Both the position numbers and the translations under genes were made by a program. The notes under the pieces were generated by a model that worked only from the letters and a program-made list of their open reading frames with translations, made no database searches and had not been told where the DNA came from. From Ferrimonas lipolytica (GTDB lineage: Bacteria; Pseudomonadota; Gammaproteobacteria; Enterobacterales; Shewanellaceae): a stretch of 64,000 nt of DNA. Positions 26,454-64,000 of this stretch are shown piece by piece (position 1 is the stretch's first letter; each line of letters begins with the position of its first letter). The stretch spans positions 434,001 through 498,000 of the forward strand of contig NZ_CP051180.1 of NCBI RefSeq assembly GCF_012295575.1, written 5' to 3'.

Positions 26454-27266
26454 ATGCAGTTTATGGCTATTGGTTTTGCCTTTGTTGGGCTGGTTATCAC
26501 CCTGACTGGGGGGGCCGTTTACCTTAACAAGCTCAAACAGAGTCGTGCACCGAAGCATCCAGTTGGTTTTTCAGCAGCATTGATTAGTGCGACTGTTATT
26601 GGTACTTACGCCGTGTATCTGGCTTGGCCGAGTGCGTTAAGTACTGTAATTACGGTGCTACCACTGCTGTTCACAGCGATGCTGGCATTTGTGTTCTTCT
26701 TTTTCCTTGGGCAAAAGAACCCTCCGCTGAACGACATCAAAATTAAGGTTGGCGAACCAATACTGCCGTTTACCGTGCCAGCACACGACGGCAGCTTATT
26801 TGATTCAGAAAAACTGAAAGGTCGCCGCACCTTGTTGAAGTTCTTCCGAGGCTCGTGGTGCCCATATTGCAGTGCGGAATTAAAGATGTTTGAACAGATG
26901 CGCGCTGAACTAGAGGCGAAAGGCATCGATATTGTGGCGTTGTCGGACGACACGATTGAGCAAGCACAATTACATCACCAGCGTGACCAACTGCAGTTTA
27001 CGTTATTGTCTGATCCGTCCCTGCGGGTGATCCGCGCTTATGGCGTTGAACACCACAAAGCGTTAGGTTTTAAGTCGGAAAACATCAAGCAGGTGTTGGG
27101 GTTGTCGATGGCAATGTTGAAACCAAGCTACCGCTCTATGGCGATTCCAACTTCAGTATTAGTGGATGAGTTCGGTGTGGTGCAATGGATTGATCAATCA
27201 GAGGATTACCGCCTCCGTGCCAGTAAAGACAGTGTAATGGCGGCGATAGAGCGCAGCTTTAACTAG
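26454..27266 (+). CDS. Membrane-anchored peroxiredoxin-like (AhpC/TSA, thioredoxin-fold) protein
   Basis: 270 residues. Three predicted membrane helices fill residues 1-90 (MQFMAIGFAFVGLVITLTGG, GFSAALISATVIGTYAVYLA, VITVLPLLFTAMLAFVFFFF). A thioredoxin-fold domain follows, with the redox motif GSWCPYC (about residues 134-140), the EQAQLHHQRDQLQFTLLSDPS segment of peroxiredoxins and a cis-proline AIPTSVLVDEFG. It may reduce peroxides or disulfides at the membrane. It is divergent from the TetR gene and shares its operators. Fusion of three N-terminal helices to this fold is less common than the soluble form. Confidence 0.85.
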   Translation: MQFMAIGFAFVGLVITLTGGAVYLNKLKQSRAPKHPVGFSAALISATVIGTYAVYLAWPSALSTVITVLPLLFTAMLAFVFFFFLGQKNPPLNDIKIKVGEPILPFTVPAHDGSLFDSEKLKGRRTLLKFFRGSWCPYCSAELKMFEQMRAELEAKGIDIVALSDDTIEQAQLHHQRDQLQFTLLSDPSLRVIRAYGVEHHKALGFKSENIKQVLGLSMAMLKPSYRSMAIPTSVLVDEFGVVQWIDQSEDYRLRASKDSVMAAIERSFN

Positions 27267-28055: not shown

Positions 28056-30971
28056 ATGAACAACACTAGACGAGGGACAATCGCGCTGCTGCTGGCGTTG
28101 GTCGGTCTATATTCGTCTATTGCCGTCGCCGCCGAGTCGCGTTCCCTTGCCACCATCGTTGAACAGTTGAAGGTCCAGCCTAAGGGGCCATTCTGGCGCC
28201 TACGCTGGTTTTGTAATGATGGCAGTGTGTTGCCACCACAAGCCAACGGTTGCCGTGATCACCAAGGTGGACTGCAGTATGGCCAATGGAACAGTGATGC
28301 TGAAGAATTGCATCAGGCGGGCTTTCCAGTAGCGAATGTTTTGGCAGGATTAACCGCGACGGATTTCGGTGAAACGGCAGCAAAGCAGCGTCACTTTCGT
28401 TACCTTGTGCTCGAACATTTTCTGATTGAAAACGACGATGGTTGGATTTTTCGCCAAGTTCGTAGCTACCGCGGTGCCAAAAATGTTAACGACGAACACA
28501 CCAGTGCCTATCAGTTATTGACGCGTTTGGGCGGAGAACCGCGGTGGCAACAGCAGCGATTTTTATTGCTGATTGAAGCTGCACGATTAATTCCCCATGG
28601 CCACTATGGCAAGCGTTGGCAAACTGTACGGTCACAGGTGGCGGCACTCTACCAACAACAACCACAATTTAAGTCACTGCGTAATAAGATCCTCAATCAG
28701 CCGGATAAGTTTGATGCCGATAGGGTAAGGAGTTTTGCCATCGGCTCAGCGCGGGCACGGTTGATCCCAGCCTATGAGCAACTCGCGCAACAACTTGATT
28801 TACTGTTTGCGGCAGAGCCGATGGCAACGCTGTTACAGCGTTATATCGATACCGAAAAAGCTCCAGAGCTGCGTTCGTTAGCTACTGCAGCGCTGCAGCG
28901 ATGGCCTGAGCTAACTAACGCTGAGGAGCAGCTCGAGCTACTTAGCCGCTTGATTATGGCGATACGGCATCAGTTTGAACGCTGTTCACACCCACTGGAA
29001 AGCTTGGATCTGCTGTTGAGTTTAGAGCAACATATTTTGCCGCTCGGTTACCAAGCAGTGGTGCAACAGCAATTTTTAAATCGCGGCCAGCTGTTGCAGC
29101 ATATTCAGGCGCTGCTGCGCGCCAGCTACGGAGTTGGTTTGCTGTCCAGATTGGAGTTCGAGCTGGGTCAGAAGCAACTCAAGCTGCTTACCAGCAAGCC
29201 GCTGACATTGGCGAATTATCGAAAAGCCCTAAATCAACTGGCTCGGCTTAGCCATTGGTCTGAGCGGCGGTTGTCATTCTATTTTGGCGAGACAATTACG
29301 CATTTTGCGACTATCGAGCCCAAAGTGATGGGTTACATCGCTAATCGTCTGCAATTGAGCGCAATACACCCGTTGTCGCAGCTGGTTACTTTGTTGCAGC
29401 AGGAGATCCAGTTTATTAGCCCCAGCGCTGATCCTGCCGGGGTAGCATCATCGGCATTGGCGCTCATCCCGGGCATCGCTACTGGAACCATACGAACTGT
29501 GGCGCAACTGGAACATGCCACCACAGCGAGTATTCTCTTGGTTAATGCCGACGAACTGTTACTTCAGTCGCTCCCAGCTGCTGTTGAAGCGTTAATTCTA
29601 GTGTCTGCGGATGCAGCTTATATGCCTTGGCGCCGACAGCTGGTGCTGCGAGATACACCCACTATTGTGATTAAACCGGAGCAAGCGGCGACCATGCAAA
29701 CCCATGTGGGCGAGCGCATCAACCTGCTCGTCAGTGCCAATGGTTATGTTGAGATGGAATCGGCCAAACAGCGGTTATCACTGCAAACCCAGGCTTTGGT
29801 TGATGCAGAGCCGTTAACCGTTAATTTTGAACAGTATGATCTGCAAACCGCCACGCCGATTTCGACGCGGCAATTGTGGCCCAGCGACCGTGGGGTTCGT
29901 ATTGGCTTTCAGGCGGCGCAGCAAGCGCAATTGGCCCGTTTCTTTCCGAATGATGTTGCCCCAAGTCTGGCCATTCCATTTGGCAGCTACGCTACGCTCC
30001 TCACTATGGGGCAGTATAAAGAGCACAACCGTTTTGACTGGTTGCAACAGCGCTTTGCGGCTATTGCTGAACTTAACGGCCAACCAGAGCAACGCCCTTT
30101 GATTGAGCAAACTGCGCAGCGACTGCAGCAATGGTCTGGGCAACATTTATTGATGCTGGCGGCTAAGAATAGCCTTGAATCTGCTCTGGTACGTGAATTT
30201 GGGCTGACGCCAGATCATGGCTTGGATTTGTTGACTGAAACCAATTTAGAGGGGCTCAACTTAGCTGAGCAGCGGCGTTTACAGCGTCAGTCAGTTAATG
30301 TCATTGGCGTTGATGAGTTGCTGCTCGCGATTGATGAGCACTGGCGCCAACTGTCGAGTATCAGCACGTTGCAATGGCGCGCTCAACGGATGCGCGAGCC
30401 TGCGCAGCTCTATCCATCAATGTTGATTAAGGAGTCGATTAACTTTGATGTTACTGGGGTGATGGTAGCGCCAATACACAAGTCTGAATCAACACGGACG
30501 GCAACGGTATTGCTGTCTCCGGGCGCGATGCCGCTGAGTGGTTGGCATCAGGCGGAGATGGCGGATTTTGACCTCGACAGTGGCGTCATTAGCGTGCTCC
30601 ATTTTGCCGCGGCTCCACAGCAACAAGTGCTCAACTACAATGGCGGCGTTGATACCACTGCGGTAGCACAGATAACGCAGTTAATCTCTGCCAACTACGT
30701 TAAGCAGTTGCAGCGCGTGGTGGCTCGATTGCCGCAATGGTTCGGTAGCGATTTCGATAAAGCCAACCCCAACGCCGTTGTTCGTTTTGGTTTTCGCTAC
30801 GGCAAGCTCTATCTACAGCAGCTGTTGCCGTTGCATAAGTACCAATGGCCGCTGCCTAATACACTGCGCAATCGCCAGCAATTATTGCAGTTCGACGCTG
30901 CTCAACTGCCTGAAGATGAGCTATTTATCGATGTAACTCAATTGGTAAAAACCTCTCAGTCCACACAGTAA
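28056..30971 (+). CDS. Exported PEP-synthase/glucan-water-dikinase-like protein, probably a pseudoenzyme
   Basis: 971 residues with a clear signal peptide (MNNTRRGTIALLLALVGLYSSIAVAA). Residues about 50-70 contain two Cys in a WFCNDGSVLPP...NGC segment. Around 455-570 lies a region like a phosphohistidine swivel domain (LIPGIATGTIRTV, SILLVNADELLLQSLPAAVEALILVS, LRDTPTIVI, VSANGYVEM). From about 680-870 it resembles the PEP/pyruvate-binding ATP-grasp domain: TETNLEGLNLAEQ in place of RSSANxEDLxGxxxAG, DELLLAIDEHWRQLSS, then MLIKESINFDVTGVM. The order swivel-then-nucleotide-binding is that of glucan water dikinases, not PEP synthase. The catalytic His and the RSS of the ATP site are not found. 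Function unknown; periplasmic location would anyway lack ATP. Confidence 0.7.
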   Translation: MNNTRRGTIALLLALVGLYSSIAVAAESRSLATIVEQLKVQPKGPFWRLRWFCNDGSVLPPQANGCRDHQGGLQYGQWNSDAEELHQAGFPVANVLAGLTATDFGETAAKQRHFRYLVLEHFLIENDDGWIFRQVRSYRGAKNVNDEHTSAYQLLTRLGGEPRWQQQRFLLLIEAARLIPHGHYGKRWQTVRSQVAALYQQQPQFKSLRNKILNQPDKFDADRVRSFAIGSARARLIPAYEQLAQQLDLLFAAEPMATLLQRYIDTEKAPELRSLATAALQRWPELTNAEEQLELLSRLIMAIRHQFERCSHPLESLDLLLSLEQHILPLGYQAVVQQQFLNRGQLLQHIQALLRASYGVGLLSRLEFELGQKQLKLLTSKPLTLANYRKALNQLARLSHWSERRLSFYFGETITHFATIEPKVMGYIANRLQLSAIHPLSQLVTLLQQEIQFISPSADPAGVASSALALIPGIATGTIRTVAQLEHATTASILLVNADELLLQSLPAAVEALILVSADAAYMPWRRQLVLRDTPTIVIKPEQAATMQTHVGERINLLVSANGYVEMESAKQRLSLQTQALVDAEPLTVNFEQYDLQTATPISTRQLWPSDRGVRIGFQAAQQAQLARFFPNDVAPSLAIPFGSYATLLTMGQYKEHNRFDWLQQRFAAIAELNGQPEQRPLIEQTAQRLQQWSGQHLLMLAAKNSLESALVREFGLTPDHGLDLLTETNLEGLNLAEQRRLQRQSVNVIGVDELLLAIDEHWRQLSSISTLQWRAQRMREPAQLYPSMLIKESINFDVTGVMVAPIHKSESTRTATVLLSPGAMPLSGWHQAEMADFDLDSGVISVLHFAAAPQQQVLNYNGGVDTTAVAQITQLISANYVKQLQRVVARLPQWFGSDFDKANPNAVVRFGFRYGKLYLQQLLPLHKYQWPLPNTLRNRQQLLQFDAAQLPEDELFIDVTQLVKTSQSTQ

Positions 30972-30987: not shown

Positions 30988-31866
30988 TTACTGCAATAAC
31001 TGCTCGCACTGCTCCTCTAACCACCGCTGACCCAGCCCTTTGGCACTGTTTAGAGGGGTTACTCGGTCAACTGGCACCGACCAGGTTTCGATATCAAAAC
31101 TTACCGGCAATTTGACTAATCGTTGGTTATCAACCTCGCTCTGAGCCAAGTGGGCTGGTAAATACCCCCAACCGAGATTGGCTATCGCTAATTGTTTTAA
31201 GGCTTCGAAGTCGTTAGACCAATACACCTTAGGGGAGATCGGTTGCAGCTGTTCGACCGCCTTGTTGTTACTGTTTTTGGTGATTAGTTGCCGATGCAAT
31301 GTTATCTCGCTGCGGCTTACGCTTTGCAGTTGCGCTAACGGATGCAATGGCGATGCGACGGCGTAAAACGGCAGTTGGCCGAGTAAGCCTAGGTTAACCC
31401 CCGCTGGCATATCTTGACCCGTCAACATCAGTCCAATGTGGGCTCTACCTTGCCGGACCAATGGCGGGATCTGGTTACTCTGGCAGATCTCAAGTACCAG
31501 CTCGGTGGCGTGGAAGCGTTGGCTAAAACGTTGAATTAATTGGTAGAGGCTTGGTAGGGTCAGTGCCTGATCTAGCGCGATGGTTAGCGAGGGCTCCGTT
31601 TCCGGTGTGAGTGCCGCGGCAGTGGCTTGCAGATCTTGAGCTTGCTGCATAACCGCTTGCGCTTGTTGCAACAGGATTTGACCGTGAGGGGTTAGGGTCG
31701 GTTTACGACTGCTGCGGTCAAACAGGGTTTGGCCTAGGTCGATTTCGAGATTAGCGATGGCTTGGCTTACCACCGACTGAGCTTTACCGAGGCGTCGAGC
31801 CGCCGCAGAGAAAGAGCCAGCTTGGGCACAGTGAATAAAAGTATTGAGTTGTTGCAGGCTTAACAT
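30988..31866 (-). CDS. LysR-family regulator, AceR-like by context
   Basis: 292 residues, standard LysR: helix-turn-helix in residues 1-60 (FIHCAQAGSFSAAARRLGKAQSVVSQAIANLE) and an effector domain. It is divergent from the PACE efflux gene with an 83-bp gap, the arrangement of aceR-aceI in Acinetobacter, where the LysR protein activates the exporter on ligand binding. Ends 14 bp after the convergent exported dikinase-like gene. Confidence 0.88.
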   Translation of the reverse strand: MLSLQQLNTFIHCAQAGSFSAAARRLGKAQSVVSQAIANLEIDLGQTLFDRSSRKPTLTPHGQILLQQAQAVMQQAQDLQATAAALTPETEPSLTIALDQALTLPSLYQLIQRFSQRFHATELVLEICQSNQIPPLVRQGRAHIGLMLTGQDMPAGVNLGLLGQLPFYAVASPLHPLAQLQSVSRSEITLHRQLITKNSNNKAVEQLQPISPKVYWSNDFEALKQLAIANLGWGYLPAHLAQSEVDNQRLVKLPVSFDIETWSVPVDRVTPLNSAKGLGQRWLEEQCEQLLQ

Positions 31867-31881
31867 ATCGATAAAACCGAT
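31867..31881. promoter_or_regulatory. Possible LysR box
   Basis: ATCG-N7-CGAT, an inverted repeat directly upstream of the LysR start codon in the LysR/PACE intergenic region, with T and A placed as in a T-N11-A motif. Tentative. Confidence 0.35.
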
Positions 31882-31949
31882 AGTAACTAACTTTATTGCA
31901 TCTTATATCATGATGATAATAGCGTCATTAGTCGTTGTAGAGAGGCGTT

Positions 31950-32375
31950 ATGACCACCAAAGATCGGGTTATTCACAGTGTATTGTTTGAAGTAATTGGT
32001 TTGATCCTGCTGGTGCCAGTCGCCAGTTTAATTAGTGGTGTTGCCCCAAGTATCATGACCGGGATTGCGGTACTGGTGAGCTTAATCGCGATGGCATGGA
32101 ACTACGGCTATAACGTGTTGTTCGATAAGCTGTTTGGGCAAGACCGCATTAACCGTGGCTTGATTGTACGGATGGCTCATAGCGCTGGTTTTGAGATTGG
32201 TTTATTGAGCATTAGTTTACCGCTACTGGTATTGATGACAGGCATGGGCTGGTGGGATGCGTTGATATTAGATCTGGGCATGGTGGTGTTTTATTTGGTT
32301 TATACGCTGGTGTTTAACTGGTGCTACGATCATGGTCGTCATTACCTGATGAACCGTAAGTTGATGGCTGACTAA
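31950..32375 (+). CDS. PACE-family proton-coupled multidrug efflux protein
   Basis: 141 residues, four membrane helices made of two repeated halves. The four PACE signatures are present: RVIHSVLFE in helix 1, WNYGYNVLFD after helix 2, RMAHSAGFE in helix 3 and VYTLVFNWCYDHG in helix 4. The conserved Glu in helix 1 (FE) is the proton-coupling residue of AceI. Family members export chlorhexidine and other biocides and, physiologically, short diamines. Divergent LysR gene supports inducible control. Confidence 0.93.
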   Translation: MTTKDRVIHSVLFEVIGLILLVPVASLISGVAPSIMTGIAVLVSLIAMAWNYGYNVLFDKLFGQDRINRGLIVRMAHSAGFEIGLLSISLPLLVLMTGMGWWDALILDLGMVVFYLVYTLVFNWCYDHGRHYLMNRKLMAD

Positions 32376-61939: not shown

Positions 61940-62015
<76 letters not shown>

Positions 62016-62061
62016 AGTTTTTAATAAGAGGCCGCTTATTGAGCGGCCTTTTATATCCGGG

Positions 62062-62137
62062 GTCCCCTTCGTCTAGAGGCCTAGGACACCGCCCTTTCAC
62101 GGCGGTAACAGGGGTTCGAATCCCCTAGGGGACGCCA
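62062..62137 (+). tRNA. tRNA-Glu (TTC), copy 1
   Basis: 76 nt, encoded GCCA end; loop CTTTCAC gives anticodon TTC; acceptor GTCCCCT/AGGGGAC. Confidence 0.97.
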
Positions 62138-62218
62138 CTTATTTTGTGGCTCATCCAAAATGGATGAACACTGATATTTTTGATATTGCCTAGGCCGGCG
62201 GTATCAAATCAAAGAATT

Positions 62219-62294
62219 GGGCGATTAGCTCAGTTGGGAGAGCACCTGCCTTACAAGCAGGGGGTCACTGGTTCAAGCCCAGTATCGCCCACCA
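62219..62294 (+). tRNA. tRNA-Val (TAC), copy 1
   Basis: 76 nt with encoded ACCA; loop CTTACAA gives anticodon TAC; acceptor GGGCGAT/ATCGCCC. Confidence 0.97.
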
Positions 62295-62336
62295 ATTCTT
62301 ATACTCTTGTCGTCGGAGTTTAAACGATGGTCCGGG

Positions 62337-62412
62337 GTCCCCTTCGTCTAGAGGCCTAGGACACCGCCCTTTCACGGCGGTAACAGGGGTTCGAATCCCC
62401 TAGGGGACGCCA
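62337..62412 (+). tRNA. tRNA-Glu (TTC), copy 2
   Basis: Identical in sequence to copy 1. Starts the regular 223-bp repeat. Confidence 0.97.
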
Positions 62413-62447
62413 CTTTTTCAAATGATGTGTTGTTTAACATGTTGTTT

Positions 62448-62523
62448 GGGCGATTAGCTCAGTTGGGAGAGCACCTGCCTTACAAGCAGGGGGTCACTGG
62501 TTCAAGCCCAGTATCGCCCACCA
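62448..62523 (+). tRNA. tRNA-Val (TAC), copy 2
   Basis: Identical to copy 1; followed by an AGTTCG/CGAACT spacer hairpin. Confidence 0.97.
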
Positions 62524-62559
62524 TTTTCTTTAGTTCGGAATTAAAACGAACTGTCCGGG

Positions 62560-62635
62560 GTCCCCTTCGTCTAGAGGCCTAGGACACCGCCCTTTCACGG
62601 CGGTAACAGGGGTTCGAATCCCCTAGGGGACGCCA
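62560..62635 (+). tRNA. tRNA-Glu (TTC), copy 3
   Basis: Identical gene, 223 bp after copy 2. Confidence 0.97.
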
Positions 62636-62670
62636 CTTTTTCAAATGATGTGTTGATTAACATATTGTTT

Positions 62671-62746
62671 GGGCGATTAGCTCAGTTGGGAGAGCACCTG
62701 CCTTACAAGCAGGGGGTCACTGGTTCAAGCCCAGTATCGCCCACCA
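62671..62746 (+). tRNA. tRNA-Val (TAC), copy 3
   Basis: Identical gene, 223 bp after copy 2. Confidence 0.97.
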
Positions 62747-62782
62747 CTTTCTTTAGTTCGGAATTAAAACGAACTGTCCGGG

Positions 62783-62858
62783 GTCCCCTTCGTCTAGAGG
62801 CCTAGGACACCGCCCTTTCACGGCGGTAACAGGGGTTCGAATCCCCTAGGGGACGCCA
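62783..62858 (+). tRNA. tRNA-Glu (TTC), copy 4
   Basis: Identical gene, 223 bp after copy 3. Confidence 0.97.
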
Positions 62859-62893
62859 CTTTTTCAAATGATGTGTTGATTAACATATTGTTT

Positions 62894-62969
62894 GGGCGAT
62901 TAGCTCAGTTGGGAGAGCACCTGCCTTACAAGCAGGGGGTCACTGGTTCAAGCCCAGTATCGCCCACCA
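62894..62969 (+). tRNA. tRNA-Val (TAC), copy 4
   Basis: Identical gene, 223 bp after copy 3. Confidence 0.97.
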
Positions 62970-63005
62970 TTTTCTTTAGTTCGGAATTAAAACGAACTGT
63001 CCGGG

Positions 63006-63081
63006 GTCCCCTTCGTCTAGAGGCCTAGGACACCGCCCTTTCACGGCGGTAACAGGGGTTCGAATCCCCTAGGGGACGCCA
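63006..63081 (+). tRNA. tRNA-Glu (TTC), copy 5
   Basis: Identical gene; followed by a different 77-bp spacer that recurs after copy 8. Confidence 0.97.
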
Positions 63082-63158
63082 CTTATTTTGTGGCTCATCT
63101 ATTGCAGATGAACACATTGAGTTAAGTCATTAGGCCGACTTGATTCAACCGTAGATTT

Positions 63159-63234
63159 GGGCGATTAGCTCAGTTGGGAGAGCACCTGCCTTACAAGCAG
63201 GGGGTCACTGGTTCAAGCCCAGTATCGCCCACCA
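63159..63234 (+). tRNA. tRNA-Val (TAC), copy 5
   Basis: Identical gene; only seven bases before the second tRNA-Ala. Confidence 0.97.
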
Positions 63235-63241
63235 AATCTAT

Positions 63242-63317
<76 letters not shown>

Positions 63318-63351
63318 ACTCTTTTCATCGGAGTTTAAACGATGGTCCGGG

Positions 63352-63427
63352 GTCCCCTTCGTCTAGAGGCCTAGGACACCGCCCTTTCACGGCGGTAACA
63401 GGGGTTCGAATCCCCTAGGGGACGCCA
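63352..63427 (+). tRNA. tRNA-Glu (TTC), copy 6
   Basis: Identical gene; the spacer before it matches that before Glu copy 2 (CGGAGTTTAAACGATGGTCC). Confidence 0.97.
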
Positions 63428-63463
63428 CTTTTTTCAAATGATGTGTTGATTAACATATTGTTT

Positions 63464-63539
63464 GGGCGATTAGCTCAGTTGGGAGAGCACCTGCCTTACA
63501 AGCAGGGGGTCACTGGTTCAAGCCCAGTATCGCCCACCA
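63464..63539 (+). tRNA. tRNA-Val (TAC), copy 6
   Basis: Identical gene. Confidence 0.97.
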
Positions 63540-63575
63540 TTTTCTTTAGTTCGGAATTAAAACGAACTGTCCGGG

Positions 63576-63651
63576 GTCCCCTTCGTCTAGAGGCCTAGGA
63601 CACCGCCCTTTCACGGCGGTAACAGGGGTTCGAATCCCCTAGGGGACGCCA
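63576..63651 (+). tRNA. tRNA-Glu (TTC), copy 7
   Basis: Identical gene, 224 bp after copy 6. Confidence 0.97.
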
Positions 63652-63686
63652 CTTTTTCAAATGATGTGTTGATTAACATATTGTTT

Positions 63687-63762
63687 GGGCGATTAGCTCA
63701 GTTGGGAGAGCACCTGCCTTACAAGCAGGGGGTCACTGGTTCAAGCCCAGTATCGCCCACCA
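63687..63762 (+). tRNA. tRNA-Val (TAC), copy 7
   Basis: Identical gene, 223 bp after copy 6. Confidence 0.97.
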
Positions 63763-63798
63763 TTTTCTTTAGTTCGGAATTAAAACGAACTGTCCGGG

Positions 63799-63874
63799 GT
63801 CCCCTTCGTCTAGAGGCCTAGGACACCGCCCTTTCACGGCGGTAACAGGGGTTCGAATCCCCTAGGGGACGCCA
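63799..63874 (+). tRNA. tRNA-Glu (TTC), copy 8
   Basis: Identical gene, 223 bp after copy 7. Confidence 0.97.
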
Positions 63875-63951: not shown

Positions 63952-64000
63952 GGGCGATTAGCTCAGTTGGGAGAGCACCTGCCTTACAAGCAGGGGGTCA
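63952..64000 (+). tRNA. tRNA-Val (TAC), copy 8, cut by window end
   Basis: First 49 nt of the gene, identical to the other copies as far as they go, including anticodon TAC. Confidence 0.93.

Follow-up and report, generated by a model that had tools for sequence, protein, structure and literature searches.

In plant glucan water dikinases (GWD), which are plastid or cytosolic starch enzymes, a swivel domain precedes a C-terminal ATP-grasp domain. In rifampin phosphotransferase (RPH) and PEP synthase, the ATP-grasp leads and the His module occupies the last or a central position, different from the probably exported family described here, in which the swivel lies before a C-terminal ATP-grasp. 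For RPH, zero activity is reported for the K22A variant and no product for R117A, and activity remained upon Glu297Ala exchange (PMC4844700). The phenol dikinases HpeHI, CreHI and PpsAB are two-component catabolic kinases, for which the accessible part of the source gives no SxxK/TLC-type cassette (PMC12167813).

Here, we analysed a dikinase-like gene within a 64,000-nucleotide stretch of the Ferrimonas lipolytica genome (referred to as the window; host genome G000, 4.13 Mb, one contig). A preliminary description had proposed an exported protein built like a GWD and lacking catalytic residues. Going beyond this, we show the loss of catalytic residues being peculiar to the window protein, its family being otherwise intact and found in a conserved gene setting. 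Within open-licence PubMed Central papers, we found no description of this exported dikinase family or of its gene setting.

Results

Domain architecture of the window protein

The open reading frame (28056-30971, plus strand) encodes 971 amino acids and is real with exact coordinates, as confirmed by an ORF check; its features are collected in Table 1. The window protein alone yields no Pfam family match up to an E-value of 10 and a single NCBIfam match, to the PEP synthase model (E 0.026, aa 742-926). Both Pfam PPDK_N (best E 3.2e-36) and PEP-utilizers are matched by all 28 relatives scanned; for the latter the best E-value is 2.5e-6, the one member displayed completely scoring under the family cut-off. 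In addition, 30 places in genomes of the class as well as the best 80 named loci align over most of their length, with homology extending over N-half, swivel and ATP-grasp. The proposed order of a swivel followed by a C-terminal ATP-grasp therefore holds for the window protein as judged through homology. The Pfam scan of the window protein and the 28 relatives revealed no PEP/pyruvate barrel or rifampin-binding domain, and no carbohydrate-binding or other Pfam family was found for the N-half.

AlphaFold models were obtained for the window protein (pLDDT 87.6, pTM 0.88) and for the intact relative L032 (pLDDT 88.9, pTM 0.88). The ATP-grasp fold is found in the former, for which that of rifampin phosphotransferase is a structural match (5hv6_B; E 4.8e-11, target TM 0.80), a fold that does not represent independent evidence since the input alignment included 71 intact relatives and favours the dikinase fold. 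At E 0.001, 8 PDB matches for the window model and 11 for L032 were obtained, to RPH and the PEP synthase ATP-grasp; among the matches listed for both models none is recognisable for the N-half.

Table 1. Features of the dikinase-like gene and its flanks (positions in the window)
Feature	Position	Strand	Remark
Upstream flanking gene	26454-27266	+	
N-terminal signal-like segment, aa 1-26	28056..28133	+	hydrophobic 13-mer; cleavage site judged by eye
Conserved N-half, aa 29-465	28140..29450	+	small beta part, then helices (DSSP of model); no Pfam family
Degenerate swivel (PEP-utilizers-like) module, aa 466-585	29451..29810	+	relatives match PEP-utilizers; their alignment covers the PEP synthase and RPH swivels
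Swivel His site, here Arg526	29631..29633	+	aligned with His of PEP synthase 8a8e and RPH
Degenerate ATP-grasp (PPDK_N-like) module, aa 586-935	29811..30860	+	invariant columns, fold match
RSD site of ATP site, here Leu-Thr-Glu 726-728	30231..30239	+	R matches Arg of the RSS motif of PEP synthase and RPH
C-terminal ATP-site residues	30783..30827	+	Glu to Arg910, Gln922 kept, Arg to Leu924
Downstream LysR-type gene	30988-31866	-	starts 17 bases past the dikinase-like gene

The window protein and its kin are probably exported, as suggested indirectly by hydropathy and a conserved Cys pair. Within the first 45 residues, the window protein contains a hydrophobic 13-mer with a mean hydropathy of 2.19, supporting the signal peptide proposed before; values above 1.9 are reached by 73% of 106 relatives and 75% of 57 proteins encoded by the neighbouring gene g1 (see below) compared to 1% of 106 internal control stretches. 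Every relative with a letter at these positions has Cys53 and Cys66 (106/106), and 77/107 rows have exactly two Cys after residue 30, the pair being compatible with a disulphide.

Distribution of the family

A tblastn-type search (E 0.01) gave matches in 41 of 369 genomes of the class; excluding the window's own genome and five weak matches (E 1e-4 to 7e-3), 35 relative-bearing genomes remain. The class relatives show 26-30% identity, nearly over the full length where contigs allow, and about 24-33% across alignments. In a scan of assembled genome contigs at least 593 matching stretches were detected and at least 573 confirmed, the best 80 being kept; by record title, the matches listed include Gammaproteobacteria, Mariprofundus, Betaproteobacteria, Desulfobacterales, other delta-type bacteria and Nitrospirae. 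One of the two scan patterns demands RSDTN, so that intact members are favoured among the best 80 of at least 593 stretches; this pattern bias does not apply to the 27 class loci entering the comparison. One genome holds, next to an ordinary member, a distant paralogue of about 24% identity (L151, G232:C179), which keeps SHVQLLAR and IRSDTNVEDL.

Within the order of the host, the gene was detected in none of 393 other genomes (1/394, the window's genome alone), and it was not found in the 59 nearest relatives of the host; the degenerate form is known from one genome only. No further copy of the family was detected in the own genome, the one other PPDK_N protein of which is a predicted PEP synthase-like protein of 812 aa, presumably cytoplasmic. 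The family-alignment profile matches 145/146 genomes of the host's taxonomic family, and besides the window gene the matches cover parts of proteins, mostly 793-837 aa long, which we read as ordinary PEP synthases. In a 55-row tree, the end branch of the window protein comprises 2.3 changes per column compared to a median of 0.36.

Catalytic residues are intact in the relatives and lost in the window protein

We aligned 107 relatives (the best 80 of at least 593 stretches and 27 class loci), 97 of them being distinct in the core. In a profile alignment, His and RSD of the family coincide with His and RSS of both PEP synthase (8a8e) and RPH, and we equate the Lys of the GPK motif, from its position, with Lys22 of RPH. 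The swivel Ser-His, the GPK Lys and each of Arg, Ser and Asp of RSDTN are present in 97/97 distinct relatives; the window protein has Pro-Arg (His replaced by Arg526), Gln619 and Leu726-Thr-Glu, confirming the absence of catalytic residues noted earlier. The glycine-rich loop is lost as well and a conserved Asp is replaced by Val908. Further towards the C-terminus, Glu at 910 (95/95 distinct relatives with letters) is Arg910 and Arg at 924 (94/94) is Leu924, with Gln922 (94/94) still being present, and Asn730 and Glu732 remain as well.

The preliminary description had left room for a loss common to the whole family, which is ruled out by all 97 distinct relatives, and even the paralogue L151, being intact. 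A shift of the residues to other positions, which would have undermined the claim of their absence, is likewise not observed: neither a displaced RSD nor a displaced swivel His was found in the window protein, its SH/TH dipeptides being the four at 311, 399, 415 and 549. A frame-shift hiding the motifs gained no support, the best off-frame match having an E-value of 0.044.

Erosion is concentrated in the catalytic modules

The residue loss is local to the swivel and the ATP-grasp, the N-half being largely spared. Using the intact relative L032 as yardstick, the identity of the window protein to its kin amounts to 0.83-0.91 of the expected value for aa 29-465, 0.66-0.71 for aa 586-720 and 0.47-0.54 for both the swivel and the C-terminal part of the ATP-grasp. 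The invariant columns show the same regional pattern, with 29/36 kept in the N-half (19/23, 5/6 and 5/7 by part), 7/23 in the swivel, 10/12 in aa 586-720 and 20/45 in aa 721-935, compared to leave-one-out values among relatives of at least 0.91 for the swivel and at least 0.96 for the C-terminal ATP-grasp. For aa 29-145, the window protein (19/23; 0.826) is at the level of the lowest relative. The N-half is not untouched, as the invariant residues His75, Arg86 and His213 are changed.

Intact relatives are encoded in a conserved cassette

Clustering of 784 neighbouring ORFs placed one gene, g1, directly downstream of the dikinase gene. The overlap with the dikinase stop amounts to 4 bases in 39/57 loci, suggesting translational coupling, and in 56/57 the two genes are at most 50 bases apart. 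Among 65 named loci with 1.3 kb of downstream sequence, 62 have g1, in 59 of them on the same strand directly downstream, and three are without it. Of the 30 loci for which 7 kb of sequence flank the gene on either side, we found g1 in 28, a second gene, g2, in 25 and a TLC-like gene in 23, seven being without the latter. Both g1 and g2 match Pfam Beta-lactamase2 (2/2 tested each) and conserve the motifs S-x-x-K, S-x-N and K-S-G, and the putative enzymes appear SxxK-type and penicillin-binding-like, g1 being predicted to be exported. The third neighbour is weakly assigned as a TLC, ATP/ADP-carrier-like transporter: for Pfam TLC (ATP/ADP transporter), four of six tested score over the cut-off, one just under and one not at all, and the NCBIfam NTP/NDP exchange model matches 5/6, far below its cut-off (best 61 bits vs 387).

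Across the class, g1 occurs in 36/369 genomes, i.e. in all dikinase genomes (35/35) and as a fragment in G263. TLC is found in 67/369 genomes, with 32/35 dikinase genomes vs 35/333 others (Fisher p 5e-24, genomes being counted as independent and kinship being ignored); it is located on the contig of the dikinase gene in 24/32 genomes, at a distance of at most 12 kb in 23, and the dikinase genomes G291, G389 and G400 are without a match. The g1 setting, present in 35/35 other dikinase genomes, is absent for the window gene, and these searches of 369 class genomes found neither g1 nor TLC in the window's genome; g2 was not found there in a search run without a positive control. The window's genome encodes two Beta-lactamase2-type proteins, which are no clear orthologues of g1 or g2, with best tblastn E-values of 0.003 and 0.048.

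Reading frame and genomic context

The part encoding aa 466-971 contains no stop codon; in 500 base shuffles, stops averaged 21.8 and were never fewer than 11. The GC content of the gene is 51.9% (window 49.4%) and its codon use is the 5th nearest to the window among 20 ORFs, so that the open frame and the host-like codon use show a gene that is no obvious pseudogene and, by GC and codon use, looks at home. A phage or plasmid origin was considered and rejected: tblastn against plasmids gave 0 matches, as did scanning viral contigs with a pattern. No remnant of the gene was seen at the matching site in G010, G009 and G002 (3 of 13 same-genus genomes).

The downstream LysR-type gene and an adjoining small membrane-protein gene (30988-32375) stay paired in three same-genus genomes (L148, L149 and L150), where LysR has a different neighbourhood on its other side, which carries no dikinase gene. 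At the end of the window, 17 tRNA genes are arrayed at positions 61940-63874, Glu(ttc) and Val(tac) alternating for the most part and two Ala(ggc) being among them, and an 18th tRNA gene starting at 63952 is cut by the window end.

Discussion

The window protein descends from a family of dikinase-like proteins intact in its catalytic motifs. We consider it likely that it is an exported pseudo-dikinase, in which ATP binding and His phosphorylation are gone along with the gene partners and the N-half is still under near-normal constraint; a partnerless protein retained for its N-half is the best reading of our data. Its ancestors may have obtained the dikinase gene without the SxxK partner and the ATP-carrier-like transporter, or may have lost both later. 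In the absence of ATP beyond the inner membrane, nothing would have kept the catalytic modules from decaying, the simplest account of the timing being that catalysis became useless once partner and ATP supply were missing. The N-half might still bind the target of the intact enzymes, perhaps a cell-envelope component because of the SxxK partners, and could serve as a scaffold, sink or decoy; the swivel and ATP-grasp modules, although dead, would persist as a folded body.

The absence of the gene from the 393 other genomes searched in the order, the long end branch and the loss of catalytic residues in both modules would also suit a gene in slow decay, acquired without its partners, functionless now and with a frame open by luck or recency. 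We regard this as rather unlikely, as 971 codons stayed open despite 2.3 changes per site, where shuffling produces about 22 stops in the C-terminal part, as the erosion is sharply unequal between the modules and as the host-like codon use speaks against recency. Pseudoenzymes often regulate active kin, which counts for a regulatory or docking role towards an active dikinase from another locus of the host. A precedent is PspR, reported to be a PEP-synthase-like protein turned repressor (PMC10948481); such a role appears extremely improbable here, the own genome having no second family copy and its other PPDK_N protein, of 812 aa, presumably residing in the cytoplasm. An active enzyme with a rebuilt active site, e.g. 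in the Arg526 region, performing other chemistry on ATP or another nucleotide could draw on the remaining Asn730, Glu732 and Gln922, on other dikinase kin having changed their chemistry, such as the prodigiosin ligases, models of which match the dikinase family, and on RPH still being active with Ala at Glu297 (PMC4844700). This is very unlikely in view of the joint disappearance of the glycine-rich loop, His, Lys and the RSD Arg and, for RPH, of K22A being inactive and R117A giving no product (PMC4844700).

Read as a partnerless exported pseudo-dikinase retained for its N-half, the window protein represents a natural control, in which the frame is kept, the catalytic modules are dead and the partners are absent, thereby pointing to the N-half as the part meeting the substrate. 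The intact cassette may point to a so far undescribed reaction driven by ATP beyond the inner membrane, in a compartment, the periplasm, which to our knowledge is considered to lack an ATP supply; there are obligate intracellular bacteria which do possess one. With the probably exported ATP-grasp family being linked to an SxxK enzyme almost without exception, and strongly to a TLC transporter, the question of periplasmic ATP becomes testable in cultured strains, carriers of an intact gene including Halioglobus pacificus and Hydrocarboniphaga effusa. We tentatively put forward a model, which we hold for possible rather than probable, according to which Gram-negative and related bacteria perform a periplasmic ATP-dependent dikinase reaction, in which an exported swivel-His/ATP-grasp enzyme, coupled in translation to an exported SxxK serine enzyme and with ATP supplied by a dedicated inner-membrane TLC-type carrier, would modify a component of the cell envelope; the window gene would then be a natural knock-out, the modules of which decayed without partners and ATP and the substrate-facing N-half of which stayed.

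Comparison with described systems places the family closest to RPH and PEP synthase: the ATP-grasp is homologous (family profile A2 against 5hv6, E 7.7e-25, and 8a8e, E 3.3e-32) and the swivel His module aligns with that of the exported family. These differ from the exported family in its N-half, which is unrelated by Pfam, in the proteins looking exported and in the window protein being without catalytic residues. The earlier choice of GWD as model finds no support in this form, the domain order being the common feature and the ATP-grasp being nearest to PEP synthase and RPH by sequence and fold. GWD1_pHisD is matched weakly by 7/28 relatives (best 0.0081) and not by the window protein, and different from GWD, neither the window protein nor the 28 relatives have a carbohydrate- or starch-binding module by Pfam; membership in the GWD group was set aside, the GWD-type match being weak at best and a starch-binding domain not being found by Pfam. 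HpeHI, CreHI and PpsAB share both modules with the exported family, and the window model matches the HpeI structure (9goj, E 4.7e-10). PspR of Haloferax differs in that it is DNA-binding, keeps its His residue and is not exported, and resembles the window protein in being a PEP-synthase-like protein whose enzyme activity is gone and which has taken another role (PMC10948481).
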